Origin: a virus
Strand: one strand, 5' to 3'
Length of the DNA: 64,000 bases
Virus record (IMG/VR): IMGVR_UViG_3300025896_000024
Span: 29,905-93,904 of that record
Below the pieces are notes generated by a model, which saw only the letters and a list, made by a program, of their open reading frames with translations, was not told the DNA's origin and did no database searches. The translations under genes and the position numbers were made by a program. Shown in pieces: positions 35,438-56,327 of this stretch (position 1 is the stretch's first letter; every line of letters starts with the position of its first letter).

Positions 35438-36241
35438 CTACACCATAGAATCTCGTTTTGCTTGTAGTTTTTTAAGTTCTTTAGTAGCACCTATCAACCA
35501 CGATTTATTTGAATTTACATTTAAATATTTCCAATGATCTATTCTAGAATTTAAATATCTTTCTTGTTCTTTGTAATAATGCGCCTCATCATTATTATAA
35601 TTTTTAGCAGCATCTCTTTTTATTATTTCTTCCCATGTAGGAGATTCACGCCAATCTTCTTTAGACTTTAAGATTTTTAATATTTCAGCATCCGTTACTT
35701 TAGAATTAACTTCAACCTTTTCTTCAGCAGTTTTGATACGTTGTTCATAGCTATTAATTTCTTTATTAAGTTTTTCAAGCTTAGACATTTTCTTAATTTT
35801 CTCAGTATACTCTTTTGTTATTTCACTAACCCCTGTTTTAGGAATTGTTGTTTTAACAATATATCGATAATGAAGTCTTTGAATATTATGTCCACCTGCG
35901 TAAATAGCTTCAGTATTAAAATTATATGTAATTCCATCTCTTTGAATTTGAGAAGAAATTTCAATATTTCCTTTGGCACTTTTCCTAACATTAAGTGAAA
36001 TTAATGAATCTGATGGCATTGTGTATATCTCAATAGATTTAACCATGTCATATATTAAGTTTAACCTAGCACTTTCTCTATCATACTTGGTAAATTCCTG
36101 TTTAAATGTTTCAACAAACCATTTTTCGGTTGCAGCTAGCATTTCAACAATTGTCGGTTCTAATGAATCTAAAATAATATTAACAATATTATTTTGTTTT
36201 GATTCATTAATAAATTCGTTGTATTTCATTAGTTTACTCAT
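35438..36241 (-). CDS. Candidate capsid-targeted coiled-coil protein
   Basis: 267 residues. The second methionine opens MKYNEFINE|S, a good match to the T4 capsid-targeting peptide with the expected cleavage glutamate, so initiation at 36229 is as plausible as at 36241. The middle is beta-like (SLISLNVRKSAKGNIEISSQ). Residues about 145-250 are highly charged and helical with coiled-coil character. No enzyme motif. It begins a transcription unit after a terminator and leader module. An internal head protein is the inferred role. Confidence 0.5.
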   Translation of the reverse strand: MSKLMKYNEFINESKQNNIVNIILDSLEPTIVEMLAATEKWFVETFKQEFTKYDRESARLNLIYDMVKSIEIYTMPSDSLISLNVRKSAKGNIEISSQIQRDGITYNFNTEAIYAGGHNIQRLHYRYIVKTTIPKTGVSEITKEYTEKIKKMSKLEKLNKEINSYEQRIKTAEEKVEVNSKVTDAEILKILKSKEDWRESPTWEEIIKRDAAKNYNNDEAHYYKEQERYLNSRIDHWKYLNVNSNKSWLIGATKELKKLQAKRDSMV

Positions 36242-36285
36242 ACTATATTTATCTGTTTTAATTATAGTGTAAATATAAACAAAAA

Positions 36286-36309
36286 ACCCGAGATTAAAAA
36301 ATCTCGGGT
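36286..36309 (-). terminator. Intrinsic terminator after ribosomal protein S1 gene
   Basis: Ten-base-pair stem ACCCGAGATT/AATCTCGGGT with a four-base loop, followed on the minus strand by six T residues. It lies 28 bases past the S1 stop. Its flanks (GTTAATAACTTTTATAA before, GTTTATATTTACACTATAA after) recur around two other terminators in the window. Confidence 0.85.
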
Positions 36310-36336
36310 AAATTAATTTATAAAAGTTATTAACAA

Positions 36337-37527
36337 TTACAGTTTTAAGAAAACTTTTCGCGTATCAATATCGATTCGTATAACTTGTACTGTGATTGGA
36401 CTATTTTTAGTAAGTGATTCAACTTCCATGCCTTCAGGTAATTCAGATACATGTAATAATCCTACAATTCCATCTCCAATATCAACGAATACTCCATAAT
36501 CTTTAACAGACTTAATAGAACCTTGTACTTCTGTTGGAAACGATTTATATTTTCCAATTATTTCTTTCCAAGGATCTACAGTTTCAGCGTATTCTAATTG
36601 TGTTAAAGTAATTTTAGTATCGCTAATAATTTCTTTCACTTTAAATTCAATTTCATCACCTGGTTGAATTTCTCTAGATTTATGTTTCTTAGCCATTTCT
36701 AAAGTTAAATCATTTGCATGAATCATTCCAGTTAAACAACCATCGAATTCAACAAATACTCCGTATTTAGCAGAACCTGTAACATTTCCGGTTTTAGTTT
36801 CTCCCATACTGTTTCTAAGTTCTTCAACTTTACCAGGAATTAGGGCTTGTAAGTATTTTCTATGTGAAACAATTACAGTACCTCTCTCTGGAGAGTAACT
36901 CATAGGAACTACATACATTTGTGTATTTAAAATAGACTCAAATTCTGCAAGTTTATTAATTCCAGCAAGAGAACCTGGCATAAAACAATCGATACCTTGT
37001 ACATTTACGAAATAACCGCCGTTTGGAATCATTCCAGTTACTGTTCCAATATAAGCTGTATTTCCATCTTCAATTGATGCTAAAATTTCTCTAAGAATCG
37101 CAGCTTTAATTCCAGCTTCAACTGATCCAATAACAAATCCTTTAACATTTCTATCTCCTGTAATTTCAACAGATACCTCAGTTCCTGGTATTAATTTTAA
37201 TTTTGAAATATCGGATTCTCTTGACATATTTACATAAACCATTTCTCTATGGCCTATATCAATGGATGCCCATTCGGTATCAACTGAATACACTTTTCCA
37301 GTATAAGTTTCTCCAACGTTTACTGCAAATACTAATGTAGTTTGTGAAAATGAATTTTCCATTAAGTCATAAAGTTCTTGAGCATAAGGTTCTCTAGAAT
37401 ATACTTTGTGACCATCCTTTGTTTTTACATGTGAATTTGGTCTTTTATATGATGATGGACAATCCGCCAAATGCGCGTCCCAATCAAATCCAATAATCCC
37501 TTCCGTTACTAACTGTTTTTTTGACAT
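36337..37527 (-). CDS. rpsA: Ribosomal protein S1 homologue with four S1 domains
   Basis: 396 residues. There are four S1 RNA-binding domains, at about 70-140, 150-225, 240-315 and 330-396. The last two are canonical (KYGVFVEFDGCLTGMIH, DYGVFVDIGDGIVGLLH). The N-terminal FDWDAH and AQELYDLMENSF resemble Bacteroidota S1. Cellular S1 brings mRNA to the 30S subunit; a phage copy may favour phage mRNAs that lack Shine-Dalgarno motifs, as those here do. The leader is nearly pure A before the ATG. It is surrounded by baseplate genes rather than translation genes. The N-terminus reads LVTE|G, matching the protease-site pattern of the candidate cargo proteins. Confidence 0.88.
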   Translation of the reverse strand: MSKKQLVTEGIIGFDWDAHLADCPSSYKRPNSHVKTKDGHKVYSREPYAQELYDLMENSFSQTTLVFAVNVGETYTGKVYSVDTEWASIDIGHREMVYVNMSRESDISKLKLIPGTEVSVEITGDRNVKGFVIGSVEAGIKAAILREILASIEDGNTAYIGTVTGMIPNGGYFVNVQGIDCFMPGSLAGINKLAEFESILNTQMYVVPMSYSPERGTVIVSHRKYLQALIPGKVEELRNSMGETKTGNVTGSAKYGVFVEFDGCLTGMIHANDLTLEMAKKHKSREIQPGDEIEFKVKEIISDTKITLTQLEYAETVDPWKEIIGKYKSFPTEVQGSIKSVKDYGVFVDIGDGIVGLLHVSELPEGMEVESLTKNSPITVQVIRIDIDTRKVFLKL

Positions 37528-37581
37528 TTTTTTTGTTTTTAAGTATTAATAATTATAATATGTTATATATATATGTTTTTC

Positions 37582-39216
37582 TTAGAATGCAAGTTTACTA
37601 AATCCTACCATCGGAACCGTAACAGTTCCCATTGTTAATTTACCGATATATGTAAATTTTAATTTTAGTAAATGTCTAGCACATGATACTGCAATCGCAG
37701 TTGAAACTATTCGTGCAGCAGGTCTATTTAAATAATCTAATTGAAACCTTTTACCAGAATTCCATGCCTTTCGTAAGTCATTCGCTAAAATACGGGTATT
37801 TCCGTATGATATTGGTAAAAAAACACCTGGATCAGGAACATTACATGGAGGAATTGGAGGAGCATTTGTGAATGGCGCTGGGCCAGTTGACATCCAGTAT
37901 TTAATAATACAATCTGCCATTACAAAGTACGGATCATTTTCATCCAAAGTTCCTTCATTTTCCTTTTCCTTTTCAGAAATTTCATTAATCCATCTTCTTT
38001 TTAATTCGTTAAATCTTTCCTGTTCTATTTTATATTTATTTAGTTTAACCTCCAACGCATCCTTATCCGCCTTCTTTTTATAGTTAGTATAAAACGCACC
38101 TACGAAATCATTAGTTGATTTTTTATAATCAGATAATCCCATGTACATGTTAGTAGGATCATACACGTATCGTACTATAAATTCAACAGTAAGCCATTTT
38201 GGTAAACGTTTGACATGTAATTTGTATTCCTCTTGAAAAAACCTATCATGTAAATTGCGATTAAACAATGTTCCAGACTGCATACTATTTAATACGCGGG
38301 CCTTTACCATTTTAAGAAAAGGATCCGAGCTATTAATATCTATGTTTTCAATCCACCTTCTAAAGAATTCACTTCCATCATTTTGCATTAAGATCCTATT
38401 GGTAACATATTCTACCCTTGAATTCACATTAACGTCTTCTACTATTTGTCTCTCTGGACCTTGGTCAACACTAATAATGCGTGGAATTCCATCTGGGGTT
38501 ATTTCGATCGAAGCTCTTTGATTAACGTTTTTTAATTCTATTTTTTTAGTAGAATCTATTGCACTTTCAAATACATATTCATAAAACCCTGGTTCTGTTG
38601 GTATTTTAACACTAGAGACACTCTGTGAATCAGTGGTAGTATTAAATACAACTCCATTTAGTTTATATGTAATTATATAAGGTGCTTCACCGTCACCCCC
38701 TGTTACCTTCATAGTAACTTCATTTCGAGGTGTATTTTTAATAACTTCAGATAAATTTTCTAGTGTTATATCTATTTCTCCAAATACATTAATTTCAGTA
38801 GGCGGAGCTCCAGGCAATTTAATTGGGCATGTTGATGGAAAAAATTGATAAAACAGGAAAGGATCAATCGTATCCTTATTTTCAAGGATCCAATTTTCCA
38901 TATCGCATAATGGATCAATTTTTGGGTCTATCTCTGGAAAAGATTCGAACATATCATCGTACAATTCATTTCCAAATTTATCAATTAAAGTAGGTTCTTT
39001 TGAAGTATATAACATATTGAAGGCTTTTTTAAATCCTTCTTCTAATATCTTCTTTTGACCAGATTTATGTGTATTGTTGAATAACGTTTGTGATGTTTTA
39101 ACGGCATTAAAATATTCATTAGCAACGAACATGCCAATGTGATCTGGCCCAGTAGAATCTCTACTGATCAGCTTATTTGAAAGATTATATATGAATGTTG
39201 GCCACTGAGCAGGCAT
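37582..39216 (-). CDS. Putative baseplate structural protein (544 residues)
   Basis: Helical N- and C-terminal parts flank a central Ig-like beta insertion at about 140-250 (VTMKVTGGDGEAPYIITYKL...). A charged coiled-coil stretch (about 380-420) and a hydrophobic C-terminus (LTMGTVTVPMVGFSKLAF) follow. It sits directly after the gp5-like spike gene in transcript order, which favours a baseplate role. I recognise no named family. Confidence 0.45.
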   Translation of the reverse strand: MPAQWPTFIYNLSNKLISRDSTGPDHIGMFVANEYFNAVKTSQTLFNNTHKSGQKKILEEGFKKAFNMLYTSKEPTLIDKFGNELYDDMFESFPEIDPKIDPLCDMENWILENKDTIDPFLFYQFFPSTCPIKLPGAPPTEINVFGEIDITLENLSEVIKNTPRNEVTMKVTGGDGEAPYIITYKLNGVVFNTTTDSQSVSSVKIPTEPGFYEYVFESAIDSTKKIELKNVNQRASIEITPDGIPRIISVDQGPERQIVEDVNVNSRVEYVTNRILMQNDGSEFFRRWIENIDINSSDPFLKMVKARVLNSMQSGTLFNRNLHDRFFQEEYKLHVKRLPKWLTVEFIVRYVYDPTNMYMGLSDYKKSTNDFVGAFYTNYKKKADKDALEVKLNKYKIEQERFNELKRRWINEISEKEKENEGTLDENDPYFVMADCIIKYWMSTGPAPFTNAPPIPPCNVPDPGVFLPISYGNTRILANDLRKAWNSGKRFQLDYLNRPAARIVSTAIAVSCARHLLKLKFTYIGKLTMGTVTVPMVGFSKLAF

Positions 39217-39248
39217 ACTTTATTGTTTTAATAAGTTATATATTCTTA

Positions 39249-39968
39249 TTATTTTCCTTTTTGTTGGTAATCAATATGTGCACTCTTTAAACTTGAAATG
39301 GTTAAAGGTGTTGGAGTAGATGGTGGACCTGAAGGACCTGTAGGTGTCGGATGTATATGCTTTTGATAATCATCCAACAATTTATTTAACCATTTTTCTA
39401 AAGAAACTCCGCGAACCGCTGGTTCTTTTTCATCTTCTGACCCTTCGCCGGTATTACTTAAAAATATATTTCCAGAGTCTAGAAATATTTTTTCGGTGGT
39501 TGATATTTTAATATAACCCTTTTCATCAATTTGAATCAATGGTCTTTCTTTAGCTCCACTACCTCTTGTAATTACCAATCCATCCTCAGGTGAGTGATAG
39601 ATTCTAATATTTCTTACTTCATCATATACTAATGAAACAACATCATGCGCTGCGGTAGATGCATCTAAAATATCTTTCTTTAATGATTTGCTTTGATCTA
39701 TTTGAAACCAGTATTCAGGATGATATATGTTTCCATTATCGAATCGTACTGCAACAATAGTACCAATATTAGGAGTGTGATGAGAACCAACAAAATCCCT
39801 AGTCATTGGAGTTGCCCATGGAATAGAATCATTTGGTAATTTATCAAATTTTCCAAATACCTTTACCTTACATCTTCCTAAAAATTTAGGGTCATTATTA
39901 TCTACAACCTCACCAATCCAGTGGGTTTCTCTAATATTATCTTTATCTAACTCTTTATCGGTTGCCAT
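39249..39968 (-). CDS. Baseplate central spike protein, gp5-like OB-fold without lysozyme
   Basis: 239 residues. An N-terminal OB-fold at about 15-85 carries WIGEVVDNNDPKFLGRCKV, VFGKFD and IPWATPM, the gp5/VgrG signature. A middle helix-poor segment with GYIKISTTEKIFLDSGNIF looks like the start of the trimeric beta-helix. The C-terminus is Pro/Thr-rich (HPTPTGPSGPPSTPTP). T4 gp5 has a lysozyme domain between these parts; here it is absent, so cell-wall digestion must be elsewhere. Start overlaps the stop of the 418-residue gene by 1 base. Confidence 0.75.
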   Translation of the reverse strand: MATDKELDKDNIRETHWIGEVVDNNDPKFLGRCKVKVFGKFDKLPNDSIPWATPMTRDFVGSHHTPNIGTIVAVRFDNGNIYHPEYWFQIDQSKSLKKDILDASTAAHDVVSLVYDEVRNIRIYHSPEDGLVITRGSGAKERPLIQIDEKGYIKISTTEKIFLDSGNIFLSNTGEGSEDEKEPAVRGVSLEKWLNKLLDDYQKHIHPTPTGPSGPPSTPTPLTISSLKSAHIDYQQKGK

Positions 39969-41224
39969 TAATTATATACATTTCCTAGGTTTTTAATAGC
40001 AGCTATATCTAATCCTTGTTTAATAGTGCTTCCAACTACATTTCCATTAACATTTGATTGAATTGCATTTCCAATGTTTCTTTTTTGTTGAGTTACATCA
40101 GTTGCATTATCTAGCTTTCTAACTATATTAGAGAATACATTTTCCATTGATGGAATTCTATTAACTGTTCTAGTTCTAATTTCCTGTACAATCTCCCTCT
40201 TTTTATCTTCAGCTAATTTTTTTATAGCATCAACCCCTTTACCTGCAATATCGACAATTCTTCCGGTGGCTTTTTCTTTAGCTAACTCAAGTGGAGTTTT
40301 ACTAGAATTCTCAAAAAATTCAGAATCAGGCGATGGAGATACATTATTTTTTGCGTATGGAGATTCCTCTATAATTCCATTAAGTACCCTTGCTTCTACC
40401 TTTTCCAATGTTTCATATTTTAACGTAATTGAGTTAGTTGCCATTTCTGGATTTTTCGAAAGATCTGCAAAAATAGCAGTACCGGTTGTCATATCGAATT
40501 CACAATATCCCAATCCTGTCATAAAATATGGTCTTCTAGTTGTTCCCATTATTCCAGCGTTTTCATTCTGTGAATCAATCGTAGGTTTAAAGTTACCAGG
40601 AAACCCGCTAACAGCATCTTTATTTAATTTAGAAGGAATTCCATTCATTTTAGTACTAACATTCGTCTGAATACTTCTGACCTCAGTAACATAAATATAC
40701 ATTTTAAATTTTCTAAGATTAATGGGTAATATATATGTCCATTTTGTTTCATCAAAGATAGCGCTACGATATAAATGCATTAAACCTGCAATAGGTAGAT
40801 TAAGAGATTCTAATGTTTCTATTTCTAATTTTGCGTCATCTCCTCCTAAATATGCATTCATAGGGTCATGTTGTTTAACTCTGTCCAATCCCTTTAGGGA
40901 CTGCCAATACCATGGCATTTCATCATTAATTACTTTAAGAGCTTTCTTAAAATTAATAAGATCTTCAAAACGATCTCTATAATATTGACGTAAAACTCCT
41001 GCGTCAGTTTCACCTGCGTCAGCGTGTCCTAAGTTGTATAAGAATAATTCAGCAGGACCCAGTGTATCTGGTTTAGTAATATCACCACTACCTGCGAGCA
41101 ATGGAGATTCTTCTGGATTATACCAGTCAAATAAAAGGGCAAATGAAAGGTACGTAGGATCCTGATATGGATATTTCTTAAGCGAACCTTTTCTAAAATC
41201 CGATACATTTTTAAAATCTGACAT
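39968..41224 (-). CDS. Baseplate/tube protein with tube-like C-terminal strands (gp48/gp54 candidate)
   Basis: 418 residues. The central part includes RKFKMYIYVTEVRSIQTN and YCEFDMTTGTAIFADLSKN followed by SITLKYETLEKVEARVL, a strand order typical of tail-tube-fold proteins. A charged helical C-terminus follows (about 300-380). It lies between the hub-like and spike-like genes, where tube-cap or tube-initiator proteins (T4 gp48, gp54) would be expected. That specific assignment is inference. Confidence 0.45.
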   Translation of the reverse strand: MSDFKNVSDFRKGSLKKYPYQDPTYLSFALLFDWYNPEESPLLAGSGDITKPDTLGPAELFLYNLGHADAGETDAGVLRQYYRDRFEDLINFKKALKVINDEMPWYWQSLKGLDRVKQHDPMNAYLGGDDAKLEIETLESLNLPIAGLMHLYRSAIFDETKWTYILPINLRKFKMYIYVTEVRSIQTNVSTKMNGIPSKLNKDAVSGFPGNFKPTIDSQNENAGIMGTTRRPYFMTGLGYCEFDMTTGTAIFADLSKNPEMATNSITLKYETLEKVEARVLNGIIEESPYAKNNVSPSPDSEFFENSSKTPLELAKEKATGRIVDIAGKGVDAIKKLAEDKKREIVQEIRTRTVNRIPSMENVFSNIVRKLDNATDVTQQKRNIGNAIQSNVNGNVVGSTIKQGLDIAAIKNLGNVYN

Positions 41225-41263
41225 GTATTATATATTTTTTATTTATTATGAATGTAATATTAA

Positions 41264-43057
41264 CTAACCTTTTTGCATTTTTTCAACGCCAGGATAACTA
41301 TCCTGTAATCCTAAAATGGCAGTTCGTTTTAAATCATCATCGGTTACTCCTATTAGTTCATTTCCTGTAAATATCAATACCCCAGCTTTAAATACTTTTA
41401 TTCGTGTTAAAGGGCCTCTCTCTACAAATACATATGAATATTCGGATGATTCCGGGGTTGGTTCTGACGTAGGAGCAGGTTCTGCTACTGGAGTCGGAGG
41501 TGGCTCAGGAGTTGGTGGTTCAACTGCAGGTGGAGTTGGTGGTGTCTCTTTAGGTTTAGAAGTAGGGGCAACTGTTTCCTCATTAATATTATTAACCCTA
41601 CTTGGCCACTCTCTTCTAAGTAAATTTACCTTTTGTGAAACCGACGCATTACCAGACTTATAGATATATTGAATTCCCCCAACTATATAATATCCACTTA
41701 AAAATTCATCAACAACATATACTGACGGATTTCCTAAATTTGAGTCTTCTATCTTTTTACTTTCAAATCCACCTTTATCTTTTGCATCATTTATTTGCTT
41801 TTCTGCTAGCATTCTATCAATATCATTATTATAAATAAATACTGGTATTTTGTGATATTTATGTATCGCTGGATTAAACGTTGGTAATTCTATATCTAAC
41901 GACATCTTTTTAACTTCATCAATATTTTGCGCATTCGATATTGCAGCATATTCATAGTTAAGATGTACATTTGCAGTATCGGGATCTCCTGACTTTCTGC
42001 CAACATATTTATATTTAATTTCATTTTTATATCGATCTTCATCTCTTCTACCTCTCATAGGTTCATCAATATCCTTCATGTTCTTACTTGCGAGTGGTTC
42101 AATTTCATGTGAAACTAATCCTTCTTCAGAATCATTTTCATAATATTGTAAAACTCTTTTATATCCATTTTTTTTAGAAGAAGCACCTGCTCTATTTTTT
42201 AAAGATTGTGAAGATATAAATCTATTTGTACCTTCATCTCTAACATGATTTGAAAAAACAAGAGGTAATTTAGCCTGATTTATTGCATCATCTTTAATAT
42301 TGGCGGATGGCATATCTGTAAAATCTGGACCATATGCTAAAATTGCATCTTCTAAAGTTTCTTCAGAATCAAATAATTTATTTAAATTAACATAATTAAC
42401 ATAATAATATTGATCTATACTAAATGTTTGAAAACTATCTTCATCTATATAAGAGTGTCTTACGAGATCTTCTAATGTATCGTACATTGAATTAAATGGT
42501 ATTACTAAATTCATTTCATCGTCAGATGAATCGATATTAGTAGCAACTCCTAATTTTAAATCATTTGCAATAGATTCAACATGGTCTATTGATTTTCCCT
42601 TTCCATACGATTTACAATCTTCAGAGTATAATCCAGGCACTTTAAGTCTTCCTGTGAAAATATATTTACCACCTTTCATATCTGAACCTTGTTGCGGTGT
42701 TTCAACATTTACAATATCGAAATCCATTCTAATATCCTTATATGTCTTTTTGTCAAGTGAACCTATTCTTAAATTTATTACGTCGCCATCCCTTGGAAAG
42801 GTATCAACACTAAACTGTCCATTGGTATCTATAAGTACTAAATCGATTGTAGGTAAAGTTCCCATGCAATCGACTAACATACTTTTAATATTTTCCATAT
42901 TAAACATGTATCGATTAATCATTACTATTAAATTCATTCCCTTGGATAAATTAGCGTTATCATTACCTTCACCTTCTCCCATGGAAGCAAACTCAAGTTT
43001 ATCTAACTTAATGGTAGGTTCTGTTATTGTTAATATATGATTGTCTATTGATGCCAT
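41264..43057 (-). CDS. Baseplate hub protein, gp27/late-control-D-like, with Pro-rich linker
   Basis: 597 residues. The N-terminal half has beta-barrel features and the segment KGKSIDHVESIANDLKLGV followed by IPFNSMYDTLEDLVRHSYI at about 160-215, as in gp27/gpD hub proteins that hold the spike. A proline-rich linker spans about 490-540 (ETPPTPPAVEPPTPEPPPTP). A short beta domain ends the protein. T4 gp27 has 391 residues, so the C-terminal linker and domain are extra. Neighbours are the gp53-like and tube-fold genes. Confidence 0.6.
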   Translation of the reverse strand: MASIDNHILTITEPTIKLDKLEFASMGEGEGNDNANLSKGMNLIVMINRYMFNMENIKSMLVDCMGTLPTIDLVLIDTNGQFSVDTFPRDGDVINLRIGSLDKKTYKDIRMDFDIVNVETPQQGSDMKGGKYIFTGRLKVPGLYSEDCKSYGKGKSIDHVESIANDLKLGVATNIDSSDDEMNLVIPFNSMYDTLEDLVRHSYIDEDSFQTFSIDQYYYVNYVNLNKLFDSEETLEDAILAYGPDFTDMPSANIKDDAINQAKLPLVFSNHVRDEGTNRFISSQSLKNRAGASSKKNGYKRVLQYYENDSEEGLVSHEIEPLASKNMKDIDEPMRGRRDEDRYKNEIKYKYVGRKSGDPDTANVHLNYEYAAISNAQNIDEVKKMSLDIELPTFNPAIHKYHKIPVFIYNNDIDRMLAEKQINDAKDKGGFESKKIEDSNLGNPSVYVVDEFLSGYYIVGGIQYIYKSGNASVSQKVNLLRREWPSRVNNINEETVAPTSKPKETPPTPPAVEPPTPEPPPTPVAEPAPTSEPTPESSEYSYVFVERGPLTRIKVFKAGVLIFTGNELIGVTDDDLKRTAILGLQDSYPGVEKMQKG

Positions 43058-43060
43058 TTA

Positions 43061-43570
43061 CTATATAATTATTGTACCGTTTCCGATTGATATATGATTT
43101 TCGCCTTCTTTTAATACGTTTGGAGGTAATATTTGTTTGGATCCATTGGATTTTTGAGTTGCTTTTCGCTGTAGGTATTCAATTCTCTTTGCATCTTTAA
43201 TAGGTAATCGTTTAGTATCAATGAATTGATTACGAATTGATGCATTAGACGCATTTATATTAGATATTTGTAGAATTTTAACAGGAATAATTGTTTGTAA
43301 AGCAGATTTATTATATGGAATTTCAATCACATCTCCTATATTTAGTATAAATGGATTTGATATATTATTCCATTTTAAAATAAAATCAACATAATTTTCA
43401 TCGGTATAATACTTTAAAGATATTAAATCCATTCTACCAATCTGATCCTCTGTAATAATATGTTCTGCGATTACTCTAGTATCGCTTGCAAAAACAACAG
43501 TCGGTGTTGTTAAAATTATTTTACTTCCATCTATTGAAAATGGCTTAAGTTCTAATGTACTAAATTTCAT
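43061..43570 (-). CDS. Baseplate wedge protein with LysM-like segment (gp53-like candidate)
   Basis: 169 residues. The segment GRMDLISLKYYTDENYVDFI followed by LKWNNISNPFILNIGDVIEI (about 45-84) has the LysM-like pattern found in gp53-type wedge proteins. A C-terminal tail contains NVLKEGENHISIGNGTIII. Its ATG overlaps the stop of the 600-residue structural gene by 1 base. gp53 secures the wedge ring around the hub in T4. The assignment rests on the one motif and location. Confidence 0.5.
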   Translation of the reverse strand: MKFSTLELKPFSIDGSKIILTTPTVVFASDTRVIAEHIITEDQIGRMDLISLKYYTDENYVDFILKWNNISNPFILNIGDVIEIPYNKSALQTIIPVKILQISNINASNASIRNQFIDTKRLPIKDAKRIEYLQRKATQKSNGSKQILPPNVLKEGENHISIGNGTIII

Positions 43571-45372
43571 TATCCATTACTTATTTTTCTAAATACATTC
43601 ACAAATTCGCTAGCGGTTCTTTTACCATCTCTATTTCCATAAGCACTAACATCTTCTGTTTTATTAATATCTGCAACATCATCAGGTTGAACGTAAAACC
43701 TTCCTCTGCCTGAATTAAACATTGATTCGATTTCAGCCTTATCGCGGGGTCTTGCTGGTTTTAATGTAATACTTACAACCATTCTCTCAGGAAAATCTTG
43801 AAGAGCAGTTGCACCTTCAAAATTAATTTCGCAATCTGTCATTGCTAAATTACCACAAACCATTATAGGATTTAATGGATTTCCAACAGTAACATGCCAT
43901 TGCCCCGTAGGATCTCCAGTTAAAAGAGCTGCAGCGGCTTGACCTCCCTGTGGTGTGTTAAACATTTCCATTAAACTACCACCTATTAAATTATTCAATA
44001 ATTTATTATTTGCTAAGTTTTTCCAATTAGCAGGGTCAGCAACTCCTTGAAATAACTTACCCATATCTGAAACTATAGATCCTAAAAATCCACCGTAATC
44101 GCCAGATCTAAGTTTTGCCAAATCCCCTAGGGGTTTTGCAACAGATCCATCGCTAATATATCTAACACTACCTCCCCAAAATGGAGCATTATTATAGGTA
44201 AGCGCAAGAATATTTGATAATTGGTCTAACATCATCACCTTTGGGTTAACTCCTTCAAAACTCTTAAGTTCATATTCAAATTTAAGTTTAAATTCATTAG
44301 AGAATTTAAGTCCTTGTTCCCTTACCAATGTATTTTTGATAACATTTAATGGTCCAAATACATGATTTGGATATGTATCTGAAAATGCATCATAACCTGC
44401 ATTTTGTTTTTGTGCATTTGATGAAACTGCATCCTTTCCAGACGCTGCGTTTGCCGCAGCAGATAAAAATTTGTTGCTATTTACTAGATTTCCAAAACTT
44501 CCACTCGCAGCACCTTTTTTCGATTGTAATGTTTGCACTGCAGCCTCTGCATCTTTCCATTCAAACCCATGCGAAAATTTTAATATTTCAGCCATTGAAT
44601 TTCCAGGAGCTTCTCCTAGCCATGTTACTGCCCTCGCAATATCGGGTTGTCCAATTGCTTCTAACTTACTACCATCTGCAGATAATCCTTTAGGTGTAAT
44701 AATATCATCAGTACATGGATATGCAAATCGTCTTAAGGTTATAAGCATATTATTTGGAATTTTTCCAAAATATCTAGTTAATGCAAAATCGGAATAATTA
44801 TATCGATATCCTAAATTGCCCTCAACCTTTCCTGTGATTTCTATAATTTTAGAAGCAGTTGGATTAATTAAAGTTAAAGGATCTATTTTAGAGTATCTTC
44901 CCGAGCCTACATTAAGTCCATCGACACTAAGATCTAATGGATTCCCTCTATAATTAACGAGTGAGTATTTATTGAAAATAGAATAGGGTCTTTTACCTAC
45001 GGTAATAACCTTACCCTTATTTGCGCCTGCTTGTGTAGAGGTATATTTCTCAGATTCAATTTCTTCAGTATAGTACTTAGATTTTGATGATGATATTATG
45101 GTAAATGGTTCATCGGAAGCTTTAGCGCGATTTGCAGTTTGATCAGGAGTACCGGTACTTTTAATTCTAATACCGCCTCTCCTAACTCCAGTATGTACTC
45201 CATCAGAATTAGCGCCATCAGTTCCTAATGGGTCATACCCTGTTACGCTTTTGATTGCACTTATAAATCCTTTACCCAAACTTGATTTATTTGCATATTC
45301 AAATCCGGATTTAGATGTTTTAGAAATAGATTCCTTTATTTTATCAAAATAACCTTTGGTTGCATCTGGCAT
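43570..45372 (-). CDS. Tail tube/baseplate junction protein candidate (600 residues)
   Basis: Low-complexity basic N-terminus (about 1-90). The large central region includes NKYSLVNYRGNPLDLSVDG and YRYNYSDFALTRYFGKIPNN. The C-terminal block has WHVTVGNPLNPIMVCGNLAM, then INFEGATALQDFPERMVV and SITLKPARPRDKAEIESMF, which reads like a tail-tube-type fold. Start follows a candidate late promoter by 24 bases. Position beside the gp53-like and gp27-like genes supports a tube-cap or initiator role (T4 gp48/gp54), not proven. Confidence 0.5.
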   Translation of the reverse strand: MPDATKGYFDKIKESISKTSKSGFEYANKSSLGKGFISAIKSVTGYDPLGTDGANSDGVHTGVRRGGIRIKSTGTPDQTANRAKASDEPFTIISSSKSKYYTEEIESEKYTSTQAGANKGKVITVGKRPYSIFNKYSLVNYRGNPLDLSVDGLNVGSGRYSKIDPLTLINPTASKIIEITGKVEGNLGYRYNYSDFALTRYFGKIPNNMLITLRRFAYPCTDDIITPKGLSADGSKLEAIGQPDIARAVTWLGEAPGNSMAEILKFSHGFEWKDAEAAVQTLQSKKGAASGSFGNLVNSNKFLSAAANAASGKDAVSSNAQKQNAGYDAFSDTYPNHVFGPLNVIKNTLVREQGLKFSNEFKLKFEYELKSFEGVNPKVMMLDQLSNILALTYNNAPFWGGSVRYISDGSVAKPLGDLAKLRSGDYGGFLGSIVSDMGKLFQGVADPANWKNLANNKLLNNLIGGSLMEMFNTPQGGQAAAALLTGDPTGQWHVTVGNPLNPIMVCGNLAMTDCEINFEGATALQDFPERMVVSITLKPARPRDKAEIESMFNSGRGRFYVQPDDVADINKTEDVSAYGNRDGKRTASEFVNVFRKISNG

Positions 45373-49738: not shown

Positions 49739-50268
49739 TATTTATCCTTCTTTTTACCTTGCGCGCTATCCCATGCATCTTCATCCGGATAATCTTCATC
49801 ACCTGGTTTTGCGGGTTTTTCACCACGTTTTCTTTTTGCCCATACGTTATCCCATAGTCCTTTCTTTTCTTCTAAGAACTCTTCAAATAATTTAACATGT
49901 TTCATCGTAGATATTAATTTATTTTCATTTTTTATTTGTTTCATTTTAGACATAGCCCAATCAACACCTTCATCACCTCCCCAAATAAGCCATGCAACAT
50001 ATCCATTATCTTTCCATGGTGTATCTTTAAATTCAGGAGCTATTTTAGAATTTTTTCTATGTCTATTAAACGCAGACATTCTACCAACTGTTTCTGCAGA
50101 AAGATTCTCACCACTTGATAATTGATGTGCTCTAGTCCAACCAACTGCAGTTCCAGCAGTTACTTCATCTCTACCGTACCTTTCTTTCCATTCGATTGCC
50201 TTCTTTGCATTTGCCTTGGCCGCTGCTGGATAATCGTTATATGTTTCGTTTGATTCAAATATATTCAT
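49738..50268 (-). CDS. Two-part protein: conserved phage head-associated domain plus KKGLW-type tail
   Basis: 176 residues. Residues 14-112 (AAKANAKKAIEWKERYG, then GTAVGWTRAHQLSSGE and RMSAFNRHR) form a domain I recall attached to prohead proteases and head proteins of other phages. Residues 122-176 begin with a fresh capsid-targeting-like start, MKHVKLFEEFLEE, followed by KKGLWDNVWAKRKRGEKPAK, a short module found as a separate small protein elsewhere. An internal ATG at 49905 with an A-rich leader could express the tail alone. Overlaps both neighbours by 1 base. Confidence 0.55.
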   Translation of the reverse strand: MNIFESNETYNDYPAAAKANAKKAIEWKERYGRDEVTAGTAVGWTRAHQLSSGENLSAETVGRMSAFNRHRKNSKIAPEFKDTPWKDNGYVAWLIWGGDEGVDWAMSKMKQIKNENKLISTMKHVKLFEEFLEEKKGLWDNVWAKRKRGEKPAKPGDEDYPDEDAWDSAQGKKKDK

Positions 50269-51188
50269 TAACTATATATCATAGAAAATTCTTTGTGATA
50301 TTTAATAAGAGCAAGTTCTTTTGCCTTGGCCTCTATTTCGATATCTAGGTCCATTCCATATGTTTCGATAAATTCATATAGATAATCAGCATGTGCTCTT
50401 AGGATTACCGTATTATCTTCGTGTAGTTTCTTGGAGGATGAATAGTGACATAATTGTCTAATATTATTAGGCCATGTTGTTGCACATAATTCTAATGCAT
50501 CCTTTTCTGTCATAGAATCTTCATAACAAAAATGATGAAAGAAATCAAATGTAATTGGAGTGCCACATAATTTGTAAATCTCATAAAGATCTAATACGCC
50601 ATATTGGCTTGGTTTATCGTCATTTTCTAAAACAAGACGAGAACTTGCGCATTCGGGTAATAGTTTAAAATTTTCTGCAAATCTTTTAATTGCAGAATCT
50701 TTATCGCCATAAGTTCCACCAACGTGAATATTCATCGCAGCATATTGTGTTCTAGGTAATCCCATTAAATCTAATACCTTTCCATGTTGTGTTAATTCCC
50801 ATACAGCGTCATTAACTACCTTTGGATTTGGACTTGCAAGAATATTAAAAGGACCTGGATGGAATGTAAGTCTTTGACCTACTTTAGTTGCATAATCGCC
50901 TGCGGTTTTCAATAAAGATTTGATAGCAATATAGTTAGGTAATTCTTCGATATCATATTCTGAATTCCACGGAAACATACTAGATGACATACGATACATA
51001 GTAATTCCATTTGCATTATTCCATTTAAGAATTTCAATCATATCCTTGAGATTAGCTTCTGCTAACTCACCTGCGTATTTAATACCCTTTGCTTGGAATG
51101 TTTTTTTAATCATTCCTCTACCGATTTTGATTCCCTTTTGTTTATCTAATGTTAGATTGATACAACAGTATCCATAATTTGCTCCCAT
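50268..51188 (-). CDS. uvsE: UV-damage endonuclease (UVDE family)
   Basis: 306 residues, the family's usual size. The TIM-barrel metal-binding blocks are present: RLTFHPGPF near 107-115, MNIHVGGTYGDK near 152-163, RLVLENDD near 184-191 and TFDFFHHFC near 213-221, plus RAHADY near 273. UVDE nicks DNA 5' of UV photoproducts. T4 uses the unrelated endonuclease V (DenV), so this is an alternative repair route. Heads the coupled run leading to the candidate cargo genes. Confidence 0.9.
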   Translation of the reverse strand: MGANYGYCCINLTLDKQKGIKIGRGMIKKTFQAKGIKYAGELAEANLKDMIEILKWNNANGITMYRMSSSMFPWNSEYDIEELPNYIAIKSLLKTAGDYATKVGQRLTFHPGPFNILASPNPKVVNDAVWELTQHGKVLDLMGLPRTQYAAMNIHVGGTYGDKDSAIKRFAENFKLLPECASSRLVLENDDKPSQYGVLDLYEIYKLCGTPITFDFFHHFCYEDSMTEKDALELCATTWPNNIRQLCHYSSSKKLHEDNTVILRAHADYLYEFIETYGMDLDIEIEAKAKELALIKYHKEFSMIYS

Positions 51189-52513: not shown

Positions 52514-52858
52514 TTATTTCCAAAACAACTGGACGCATATTAATAATACTGAAAGTGATAATGATATTATTGTTTTTTGATTTAATGGTTCATCCATTAT
52601 AAAATATGTTAGTATTCCGAATGATACCATGCCCATCGCGAATCCAATAAATCTCCCTGGCCATAGTTGACCATCATAATATTCGGCAACATACTTGGTT
52701 GCAATTATAAACATATAAGATATTGTAGATCCTCCTATTAATGCAATTAGAACTGGATTTCTTTTAAACCATGGCCAAACGAATTGTCCATTTGTTTGAA
52801 ACCATATCATCGATTGACCTACTATGAATAGGATTATTCCATATATTAAATTTCTCAA
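52514..52858 (-). CDS. Small four-helix membrane protein
   Basis: 114 residues with about four transmembrane helices (about 3-18, 34-54, 68-86 and 95-112). A conserved-looking GQLWPGRFIGFAMG lies between helices, and WPWFKRNP between the first two. I recall similar integral membrane proteins in many phages; function unknown, possibly transport of a small molecule. Its start overlaps the RNase HII stop by 4 bases. Confidence 0.6.
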   Translation of the reverse strand: MRNLIYGIILFIVGQSMIWFQTNGQFVWPWFKRNPVLIALIGGSTISYMFIIATKYVAEYYDGQLWPGRFIGFAMGMVSFGILTYFIMDEPLNQKTIISLSLSVLLICVQLFWK

Positions 52859-53487
52859 AACAAAGATCCTGTTGCGGTTAATAAATGTGATATAAAGCTG
52901 GGACGATGCACTTCATTTGGTCCAATTTCTTTAATCGCTTTAATATGTTGTGCAGTTCCATATCCTTTATTAGAATTCCAACCATATCCTGGTGTTTGAA
53001 TATCTAATTCCTTCATCATTGCATCTCTTTCTGTTTTTGCTAAAATGCTAGCTGCGGCAATAGATGTGTATTTATTATCTCCACCTATTATTGTTTCAAA
53101 TGGAATTCCTTCAAATCCATGAAACTGATCTCCATCTATAAGAATAAAATCGAAATCTTGTGTTTTTTTAACATTAACTAGACATTCATTCATTCCTTGC
53201 AATGTTGCTCTTAATATGTTAGTTGATTCTATTTGATTTGGATAAATATGAACAATGCTATATGCAATTACATTTTCCAAAACGATTTTTCTAGCATCCT
53301 TTCGTTGTTGTTCATTAAGTAACTTTGAATCTTTAACTAATTCATGTTGAAATCCAAATGGCATAATGCATGCAGCGACTGTAACTGGACCTGCGAGTGC
53401 TCCTCTTCCTGCCTCATCGACACCAATTTCTATGGTATCTTCATTTCCAGTATAACTTGATTTAAGTAATATTTGTCTTGTTTCCAT
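52855..53487 (-). CDS. rnhB: Ribonuclease HII
   Basis: 210 residues, the full family length. The signature IGVDEAGRGALAGPV at 21-35 carries the first catalytic acids; FILIDGDQF and AAASILAKTERD hold the others. RNase HII removes ribonucleotides from DNA:RNA hybrids and may remove primers in place of T4's own RNase H. The start codon is inside a 13-base-pair hairpin. Confidence 0.92.
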   Translation of the reverse strand: METRQILLKSSYTGNEDTIEIGVDEAGRGALAGPVTVAACIMPFGFQHELVKDSKLLNEQQRKDARKIVLENVIAYSIVHIYPNQIESTNILRATLQGMNECLVNVKKTQDFDFILIDGDQFHGFEGIPFETIIGGDNKYTSIAAASILAKTERDAMMKELDIQTPGYGWNSNKGYGTAQHIKAIKEIGPNEVHRPSFISHLLTATGSLF

Positions 53488-53535: not shown

Positions 53536-54249
53536 TTATTTATTAGGATTATCGATCATCCATTTATCATATCGTCCTACTACTTCTTGTAGAATTTTAG
53601 CTCTAACAATATCTGAATTTGAAAATTTATGATGTCCAACACCATTAATACCTTGCATTAATTCAATAAATCCAGTTAAACCTGCGTTTGCCTTTGGAAT
53701 ATCATATTGACTAATATCTCCAGTAACAAGTACCTTTGAACTTTTACCCATTCTTGTAGTAAATAACATAAGTTGCTTAAACGTTGCATTCTGTGCCTCG
53801 TCAAGAATCATAAATGCGTCATCAAATGTATCACCTCTCATAAACGCAAGAGGTTTGAATTCTATTAATCCATGGTGGATTAAACTTTCAGTTAATTCAT
53901 TTCCAACTATTTTTTTAAAGTTAGAAATATATGATTGCATATATGGATCTATTTTATCTGCAATATCGCCTGGAAGGAATCCAAGTTTTTCTCCAGATTC
54001 TTGGATAGGTTTACATAAAATTATCTTTTTAACCTTTTTTTCAGCTAATAACCTTAGTGATGTATAACATGCTGTAAACGTTTTTGAAGTTCCAGCGGGT
54101 CCAGAACAAAATGTTATATCGTTTTTTAATATTTGATTGACGTATTCGTGTTGATTATTTTTTAAATTAACGTGTTTAATATCCTCTTCTTTGACTGACA
54201 TTTTTTTAATGCTCTGTGTCTGATCTGAATTCGTCTTTTTTTGTTGCAT
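53536..54249 (-). CDS. phoH: PhoH-like P-loop ATPase
   Basis: 237 residues. Walker A is GPAGTSKT at 50-57, Walker B FMILDEAQN at 146-154, and the PhoH-family LCKPIQESGEKLGFLPGD at about 78-95. A charged N-terminal tail of about 25 residues precedes the domain. PhoH proteins are common in large phages. Their proposed roles in RNA metabolism or phosphate starvation remain unsettled. It follows a UVR-motif-like gene by 14 bases. Confidence 0.9.
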   Translation of the reverse strand: MQQKKTNSDQTQSIKKMSVKEEDIKHVNLKNNQHEYVNQILKNDITFCSGPAGTSKTFTACYTSLRLLAEKKVKKIILCKPIQESGEKLGFLPGDIADKIDPYMQSYISNFKKIVGNELTESLIHHGLIEFKPLAFMRGDTFDDAFMILDEAQNATFKQLMLFTTRMGKSSKVLVTGDISQYDIPKANAGLTGFIELMQGINGVGHHKFSNSDIVRAKILQEVVGRYDKWMIDNPNK

Positions 54250-54263
54250 AAATTTAAGTATAT

Positions 54264-54521
54264 TTAATCACCTGCCATAGTGACAAGTTCCTTTAACTTT
54301 TTTAAGGTATCACATTTTTCGTATTCTTCCAACCCTACAAAATACTCTATAAGAAGATCTATAAACATACTTCTCTGTCCAATTCCATGTGGAATATCTA
54401 TTGTATTTTTGCTATCTTGATATACAATAAATCTGTTAACAGTTTTTGTAAAATTTCTAGTTATTATGTAGTAGCTGGATCTCATTAAAGAGTCTCTTTC
54501 ATCTCTTGTAACTTCTTCCAT
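54264..54521 (-). CDS. UVR-motif-like small protein, paralogue 1
   Basis: 85 residues. The C-terminal part LIEYFVGLEEYEKCDTLKKL resembles the UVR helical hairpin of UvrB/UvrC/McsA. Two neighbours (54793-55044 and 56001-56285) end with the same EEYEKCxxL pattern, so the three form a family. The N-terminal part differs among them. Role unknown; protein-protein docking is typical of UVR motifs. Confidence 0.55.
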   Translation of the reverse strand: MEEVTRDERDSLMRSSYYIITRNFTKTVNRFIVYQDSKNTIDIPHGIGQRSMFIDLLIEYFVGLEEYEKCDTLKKLKELVTMAGD

Positions 54522-54619: not shown

Positions 54620-54799
54620 TTATATTATATTCTGCTGCTTGTATTTTGCATTTGTCATTATTTCTCTTTTTTTAATAGATGGTTTTATAAATTCCTTTCT
54701 TTCCCTAAGTTCCTGAGTTTGTTTAGTTGAAAAAACTTTACGCTTAAGATTTTTAAGTGCTTTTTCTATATTTCCATTTTCTACTTTCGATATTAACAT
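54620..54799 (-). CDS. rpsU: Ribosomal protein S21 homologue (59 residues)
   Basis: A short frame from ATG at 54797-54799 to TAA at 54620-54622. Translation begins MLISKVENGNIEKALKNLKR and continues with KVFSTKQTQELRERKEF and IKPSIKKRE. This follows bS21 closely: the leading strand, ENGNIEKALKNLKRK helix, then the ELRERKEFIKPSIKKR segment typical of Bacteroidota S21. Length is normal. In Bacteroidota, S21 helps cover the anti-Shine-Dalgarno of 16S rRNA. It overlaps the 83-residue gene by 7 bases. Confidence 0.85.
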   Translation of the reverse strand: MLISKVENGNIEKALKNLKRKVFSTKQTQELRERKEFIKPSIKKREIMTNAKYKQQNII

Positions 54800-55044
54800 G
54801 ATAGTTTATCTATTATTTTTTTAAGTTCAATACACTTTTCATATTCTTCTCTTTCTTTGAAAAAATCTAAAATCTTTTGAACTCCTTCTATTTTATCCTC
54901 GACAGGTGCGTTATGCTTTAACGCTCCCATTCTTTCATTTACTATAGAATTATATATTAAATCCATCATTTCATCCTTCGATGATTCTTGTAATTTTTTA
55001 ATGAATTTTGTTTCGTCATATTCGTGATCTTCTAATTCATCCAT
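54793..55044 (-). CDS. UVR-motif-like small protein, paralogue 2
   Basis: 83 residues, acidic N-terminus (MDELEDHEYDETKF). C-terminal ILDFFKEREEYEKCIELKKI matches the motif of its two paralogues. It is sandwiched by overlap between the DnaJ gene (1 base) and the S21 gene (7 bases), so the three are made together, suggesting a link to chaperone or ribosome function (inference). Confidence 0.55.
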   Translation of the reverse strand: MDELEDHEYDETKFIKKLQESSKDEMMDLIYNSIVNERMGALKHNAPVEDKIEGVQKILDFFKEREEYEKCIELKKIIDKLSC

Positions 55045-55829
55045 TATGAATTTTTTATCTTTTTTAGTAATTCTATTTGGTTTTCTGTTAAATTAACTGG
55101 TAAACTTCTAAGTTTTACCATTAGATTACCAAATCCTTCTTGGTTATATATTGGCATTCCCTTGCCAACTACTCTGAGGATTTTAGAATCATGAGAACCT
55201 TCTGGTACCTTGATTTTAACAGTATGTACTTTAGTTTTAATTTCAAATTCTCCACCTAATAACATATCAATCCATTCTAAATAAAGGTCAACATAAATAT
55301 CATGTCCATTTACTATTAGATCTATGTCGTGTATAATATTTACTGTTAATATTATATCTCCCTTCGGTGCACTTGAGTTAATTGGGTGACTTTGCCCTTT
55401 TTCACGGACTTTAAGTTTTGTGCCATTCTGAATTCCTTTAGGTATATTAATATTAAATCCACCAGTACCGACATCGATGTATCTTCTTGTTCCTTCATAA
55501 CTTTCCTCTATTGTTATATTTATTGAAACTCTAACGTCATTGCCCTTTGCATTATTACCAAATGATTGGTCAAATACATTAGAAAAATCATATCTATTAA
55601 AAATATCTTGCCATGCATCATTTAAATTTGAATGATGTGATGGTCCATCGTGATTTTTCCTGCTAATAGGATTACTTAAAATTTCATAAGCCTCTGATAT
55701 TTTTTTAAATTGGCTATCATCTCCTCCTGTTTTATCAGGATGATATTGTTTTACTAATTTTCTATACGATTTTTTAATATCTTCTTGACTTGCATCTCGT
55801 GAAACATTAAGCGTTTCATAGTAATTCAT
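55044..55829 (-). CDS. dnaJ: DnaJ-like co-chaperone (CbpA-type, no zinc domain)
   Basis: 261 residues. J-domain at 1-63 with the HPD motif at 30-32. A short Asn/Asp-rich linker follows, then two C-terminal substrate-binding domains (KGNDVRVSINITIEESYEGT, then VPEGSHDSKILRVVGKGMPI). The cysteine-rich zinc region of full DnaJ is absent, as in CbpA. It would recruit host DnaK to phage proteins during assembly or replication. Confidence 0.9.
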   Translation of the reverse strand: MNYYETLNVSRDASQEDIKKSYRKLVKQYHPDKTGGDDSQFKKISEAYEILSNPISRKNHDGPSHHSNLNDAWQDIFNRYDFSNVFDQSFGNNAKGNDVRVSINITIEESYEGTRRYIDVGTGGFNINIPKGIQNGTKLKVREKGQSHPINSSAPKGDIILTVNIIHDIDLIVNGHDIYVDLYLEWIDMLLGGEFEIKTKVHTVKIKVPEGSHDSKILRVVGKGMPIYNQEGFGNLMVKLRSLPVNLTENQIELLKKIKNS

Positions 55830-55831
55830 AT

Positions 55832-55966
55832 TTATTTCGTAGATGGTTTTTTAGACTCCTGTAACTTTTTCTTATTTTCAGCTACGTCTCTTGCCTGTTT
55901 ATTTTCCATACACACTGCGATTCTATCAAGAGTTTCAGCTATTTTTTTTAATATTTCCTCGTTCAT
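55832..55966 (-). CDS. Very small coiled-coil protein (44 residues)
   Basis: ATG at 55964-55966 to TAA at 55832-55834. It begins MNEEILKKIAETLDRIAVCM and continues as a charged helix to KKPSTK. It lies 2 bases before the DnaJ start and 34 after the UVR-like gene, filling an otherwise empty gap, so it is probably real. No family recognised. Confidence 0.5.
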   Translation of the reverse strand: MNEEILKKIAETLDRIAVCMENKQARDVAENKKKLQESKKPSTK

Positions 55967-56000: not shown

Positions 56001-56285
56001 TTAGATTTGTTCAATAACATCTCTAATCTTTGCACATTTTTCATATTCCTCTAATTCAATGAATAAATCTAACATAACATTAAGGGTTACTAATAATGCA
56101 TCTATATTTAGACCGTTTTTTCGCATGGATGCAACATCGATGCCATTGTCTACAATCATTACATAGTTCTCATTTGCGAGTTTTAACTTTAAATCATATA
56201 TCGCTTCTTCCATTTGTGCTTCTTTTTTCATAGTTTCAATTTCATTATTTTCTTCAAATAATTCATTAGAATCAAAGTCTTCCAT
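56001..56285 (-). CDS. UVR-motif-like small protein, paralogue 3
   Basis: I place the start at the ATG at 56283-56285, giving 94 residues, because a longer frame starting at 56378 would run across a terminator and leader. N-terminus MEDFDSNELFEENNEIETMK is acidic; C-terminus DLFIELEEYEKCAKIRDVIE matches the other two paralogues. It follows the terminator/leader module and so probably begins the S21/DnaJ operon. Confidence 0.55.
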   Translation of the reverse strand: MEDFDSNELFEENNEIETMKKEAQMEEAIYDLKLKLANENYVMIVDNGIDVASMRKNGLNIDALLVTLNVMLDLFIELEEYEKCAKIRDVIEQI

Positions 56286-56327
56286 ATTTTTATCTATTTT
56301 AATTATAATGTAAATATAACTAAAAAA

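Follow-up and report, generated by a model that had tools for sequence, protein, structure and literature searches.

A T4-like myovirus whose start sites avoid Shine-Dalgarno pairing encodes a Bacteroidota-type ribosomal protein bS21 in a DnaJ, PhoH and RNase HII gene block

Judged from its sequence, the open reading frame at positions 54620 to 54799 of the window, by which we mean the whole 64,000-nucleotide stretch of viral DNA analysed here, is a gene for a Bacteroidota-type ribosomal protein bS21 that a T4-like myovirus carries and that selection has retained. The explanation that we consider best, with a probability of roughly 0.6 for the whole of it, is that the phage bS21 occupies the 30S subunits of the host and keeps them competent for phage messages without a Shine-Dalgarno (SD) sequence.

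On the minus strand, the frame begins with an ATG at 54799 and runs down to 54620 over 59 codons; the plus strand at 54620-54799 is broken by stops. A preliminary description of this DNA, which gave no strand, had reported a 59-residue bS21 homologue at this place, and both the frame and its identity were borne out. The profile PF01165 matched at 46.7 bits (E 2.5e-12, cut-off 27), with residues 5-55 of the protein aligned to positions 3-54 of 55, nearly the whole domain, and this was the sole PF01165 match within the virus record of 93,904 bases. When PDB was searched with phmmer, the top chains were bS21 of 9i5v (E 4e-8) and then of 7jil (E 2e-7), the latter being the Flavobacterium johnsoniae ribosome structure with bS21 (PMC9723584). 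In a bS21 tree in which all cellular rows were Bacteroidota, the window protein nested among these rows near the Flavobacterium-type group, as far as 64 columns with few firm forks can place it.

The gene stands in a block of minus-strand genes, with the following features:

52855..53487, minus strand: RNase HII (PF01351, 122.9 bits)
53536..54249, minus strand: PhoH-like ATPase (PF02562, 218 bits; phrog_170)
54264..54521, minus strand: small protein c, 85 aa, with an EEYEKC motif, better conserved than any other small protein of this block
54620..54799, minus strand: phage bS21 (rpsU-like), 59 aa (PF01165 and PDB matches, intact in relatives, purifying selection)
54800..54824, minus strand: start region of bS21, within the terminal part of the upstream ORF (best anti-SD pairing -0.4 kcal/mol)
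54793..55044, minus strand: small protein b, helical, 83 aa, C-terminal EEYEKC (no Pfam family above cut-off)
55044..55829, minus strand: DnaJ-type co-chaperone with DnaJ and DnaJ_C domains (PF00226, 79.6 bits; PF01556, 97.9 bits)
55832..55966, minus strand: conserved small ORF before DnaJ, 44 aa, syntenic in relatives
56001..56288, minus strand: small protein a, the third EEYEKC protein (weak UVR resemblance)

The preliminary description had set bS21 between a UVR-like gene and the PhoH side and regarded it as co-translated with DnaJ and the UVR-like protein. The location holds, with a small ORF on one flank and the PhoH side on the other, as does the overlapping or abutting arrangement of starts in the DnaJ array, but the UVR label is weak: PF02151 (UVR) remained below cut-off anywhere in the virus record (best 14 bits versus 21.5), with the best score in small protein a and not in the bS21-adjacent small protein b, and a Pfam search of the neighbouring small proteins gave no UVR match at E up to 1. 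Since the DnaJ stop and the start of small protein b have one base in common (TAATG) and bS21 of the window begins with an ATG 7 nt before the small protein b ORF ends, translational coupling of bS21 with the upstream ORFs is likely.

Relatives were collected by searching with the neighbouring RNase HII, which yielded 18 viral contigs. Across these, the genes run from DnaJ through small protein b, bS21, small protein c and PhoH to RNase HII, the exception being L042, where small protein c is followed by RNase HII with no PhoH match in between. Small proteins a, b and c have a common C-terminal helix motif around EEYEKC and matched one another in hhalign (E 9e-11 to 4e-8, with 9e-11 for a versus b); they apparently constitute a family of phage paralogues in the surroundings of bS21 and DnaJ. 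Fold searches against PDB with the predicted models of small proteins b (pLDDT 79.5) and c (pLDDT 83) gave no significant match, and small protein c matched no Pfam or PHROGs family. Identity of small protein c across the relatives (L002-L042) is 65-94%, with many invariant residues, in relatives where DnaJ identity is as low as 33-41%. Elsewhere in the window, a UV-endonuclease UvdE homologue (198 bits) is encoded at 50268-51188 on the minus strand, and large ORFs follow one another through 35438-45372 on the same strand. Most of the ORFs tested there had no Pfam or PHROGs match; one large protein of this series had no match in GenBank phages.

Genes elsewhere in its record, for a portal of T4 type, family B DNA polymerase, ribonucleotide reductase and a baseplate wedge protein, place the virus among the T4-like myoviruses. 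For the baseplate wedge protein, the nearest relatives are those of Prevotella Lak phages and of huge uncultured phages; no clear isolate relative emerged from the matches of RNase HII, PhoH and the baseplate protein in the GenBank phage collection, and the bS21 matches in that collection were solely to unannotated uncultured or metagenomic phages. Upstream of the window, at 12-18 kb of the record, the family B DNA polymerase is apparently split (L085 12254-13450 and 17046-18443), with both ribonucleotide reductase genes between the two ORFs. The bS21 sequence type together with the SD-avoiding start sites indicates that the host is probably a member of the Bacteroidota. Promoters of Bacteroidota type (TTTG, then TAnnTTTG) were no more frequent than by chance (4 found, 4.3 expected) and thus give no evidence on the host. 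No tRNA genes were found in the window.

The start sites were examined by comparing the anti-SD pairing of the stretch before each start with that of a mock stretch 50 bases further upstream. For 54 genes of the window the mean was -0.29 versus -2.71 kcal/mol for the mock stretch (p 2e-5), and for the start sites of the relatives -0.81 versus -3.06 kcal/mol (p 5e-11), whereas the strong SDs of T4, our positive control, gave -5.93 versus -1.67 kcal/mol. By this test the phage start sites avoid the SD, and nearly all genes are SD-less; such avoidance is known from Flavobacteriales (PMC9976891). The bS21 gene is no exception, as no SD was detected before it in 54800..54824 in the same pairing test, where rpsU of Flavobacterium-type genomes reached -17 to -20 kcal/mol. 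With the extended SD of autoregulated Bacteroidota rpsU defined as pairing stronger than -13 kcal/mol, the window bS21 gene, at -0.4 kcal/mol, carries none. A possible bS21 SD was seen in the relative L037 (-9.3 kcal/mol), and the nearest cellular rpsU genes, of Saprospiraceae/Chitinophagales type (L043-L048), are likewise without an extended SD.

In F. johnsoniae, bS21-replete ribosomes initiate better on SD-less mRNA, and loss of Tyr54 or of residues 43-64 favours strong-SD messages (PMC9976891); Tyr54 stacks on the 16S tail, according to that paper. The equivalent of this residue is Y53 in the window protein, and it is present in all 15 phage family rows and all 32 bacterial rows of our alignment. 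Ala52 and Gln56 are each found in all 15 phage family rows and Lys51 in 14, the one exception being the window phage itself, which has Asn. As Tyr54 and most of the neighbouring C-terminal residues are kept, the pocket of the phage bS21 should still accommodate the 16S rRNA 3' tail. The protein would most likely be made during infection and compete with that of the host for the bS21 position on the 30S platform, which is exchangeable; it probably replaces or tops up the host protein, a substitution that the preliminary description had already envisaged. A phage bS21 protein, from another phage, does enter E. coli 70S ribosomes (PMC6375957). Ribosomes would thereby stay bS21-replete, a state suited to SD-less messages, and because the phage messages are SD-less, the phage would gain from bS21-bearing ribosomes whose anti-SD is tucked away.

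The F. johnsoniae rpsU gene has an extended SD and is autoregulated, being turned on by ribosomes that lack bS21 (PMC9976891). Since the phage gene lacks an SD and starts inside the preceding ORF, synthesis of phage bS21 should escape this feedback in Flavobacterium-type hosts, and 30S subunits filled with phage bS21 would keep host rpsU repressed, driving replacement. It is conceivable, though we hold it only tentatively, that these properties act together as a clamp, in which phage bS21, outside the feedback yet sequestering the anti-SD, holds rpsU off while taking the 30S pool, with small protein b or DnaJ aiding the exchange. The opposite view, with the rpsU loop as a possible counter-defence, was put forward by McNutt et al. 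(PMC9976891). Were the host of Saprospiraceae/Chitinophagales type, the feedback argument would fall away, as the sampled rpsU genes of that type have no extended SD.

The main phage-specific differences in bS21 lie in the first half and loop, at F. johnsoniae positions 18-30, rather than in the tail. Phage-specific residues recur at positions 23, 24, 27 and 28, and Gln28 is present in 15/15 phage family rows, 5/9 other phages and 0/32 bacterial rows. Positions 18-30 are on the mRNA side by published mapping, and the divergent Arg21, Phe23, Asp25 and Thr28 that Chen et al. reported in other Bacteroidetes phages fall in the same region (PMC9723584). These recurrent residues are what would be expected from the specialised ribosomes of Chen et al., in which phage bS21 replaces that of the host and its divergent mRNA-side residues favour phage messages. 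However, we found no sequence feature present in phage but not in host messages, both being SD-less, and the signature is not strictly viral, since Lys27-Gln28 also occurs in L088, a cellular bS21 paralogue in one Bacteroidota genome. As the full account, message selection of this kind is a possible but rather unlikely explanation; within our preferred reading, that phage bS21 keeps host 30S subunits fit for SD-less messages, changes at positions 18-30 may add some preference for phage messages, although we hold this part less firmly. Several bS21 genes in one genome were also observed among Bacteroidota: G122, G202, G107 and G092 each have two or three (loci L057, L059, L063, L088-L092, L097 and L098), one of them preceded by an extended SD (about -17.6 to -19.3 kcal/mol) and the divergent copies, L088 among them, by a weaker SD or none.

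Incorporation of a phage bS21 can also inhibit, as E. coli ribosomes carrying pelagiphage bS21 were nearly inactive in vitro, retaining about 5% activity (PMC6375957). A shut-off factor that slows host translation from within the ribosomes, or acts off the ribosome, would accord with this loss of about 95%, but E. coli is a mismatched host for the pelagiphage protein, the phage depends on the same ribosomes, and the known rRNA-contact residue is kept in our protein, all of which makes this explanation improbable.

The preliminary description had favoured a different role, in which alteration and shortening of the tail weaken the sequestration of the anti-SD, so that SD-led messages are turned on. 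The tail of the window protein is indeed shorter, with 6 residues past Tyr54 versus mostly 10 in bacteria, and Asn takes the place of Lys at position 51. However, this length is not a fixed property of the phage family, in which 6, 7 or 11 residues follow Tyr54, and the window tail, though shorter, keeps the known working residue on the alignment evidence. With Tyr54, Ala52 and Gln56 conserved throughout the family and Lys51 in all but the window phage, weakened sequestration is not supported, and phage genes that avoid the SD leave hardly any SD-led messages to profit from a freed anti-SD; we regard this role as very improbable.

An intact bS21 gene is present at the same place in 17 of the 18 related contigs; the remaining contig does not extend to this spot, as it is cut off close to the next gene. 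Disruption of the frame in related phages, which would have spoken against the preliminary description, was thus absent, the frame being intact in every complete related block. Between the window and L002, pN of bS21 is 0.11 and pS 0.67, and between the closest pair, L028 and L030, 0.01 and 0.24, ratios that are rough because many silent distances are saturated. As the frame is intact in all complete related blocks and pN is far below pS, it is not a chance frame, and by these measures it is under purifying selection and a maintained gene. The same two observations leave next to no room for a non-functional hitchhiker taken from the host, for which its small size alone speaks.

As a protein, the window bS21 is a well-supported further member of the known phage bS21 genes and no surprise, since Bacteroidota phage bS21, including the conserved Tyr54, was published between 2019 and 2023 (PMC6375957, PMC9723584, PMC9976891). 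The idea put forward in the preliminary description has precedents in these three papers as well. In a partial literature search we found no paper that reports the DnaJ/PhoH location or puts the missing SD of a phage bS21 gene to the test. The block thus represents a further genomic setting, the second, for bS21 genes retained by T4-like phages, SD avoidance in bS21-bearing phages is shown against a positive control, and the idea of phage-specialised ribosomes becomes a concrete question: does phage bS21 both retain the anti-SD and silence host rpsU in F. johnsoniae?

The pelagiphage HTVC008M and metagenomic viruses of Mizuno et al. (2019, PMC6375957) resemble the present case in that their bS21 is under purifying selection and they are mostly lytic, but the bS21 studied experimentally there belongs to the alphaproteobacterial type, and E. 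coli was the only test system. The F. johnsoniae bS21 (rpsU; PDB 7jil; PMC9976891) belongs to the same protein family and has the anti-SD-contacting Tyr54; its gene, however, has an extended SD and autoregulation where the phage gene has no SD, and in the phage protein residue 10 is missing and the tail is shorter. The freshwater Bacteroidetes myophages of Chen et al. (2022, PMC9723584) are likewise T4-like myoviruses with PhoH in the genome and a Bacteroidota-type bS21 that has a conserved aromatic residue at Tyr54 and diverges in its first half. In those phages, bS21 lies on the opposite strand among the TerL, portal, protease and MCP head genes, a layout that L008, L016 and L018 also show (head genes were identified in L008, where bS21 lies between the prohead protease and the portal, and a portal in L016), whereas the copy within the contig of the window phage is co-directional with DnaJ, PhoH and RNase HII.
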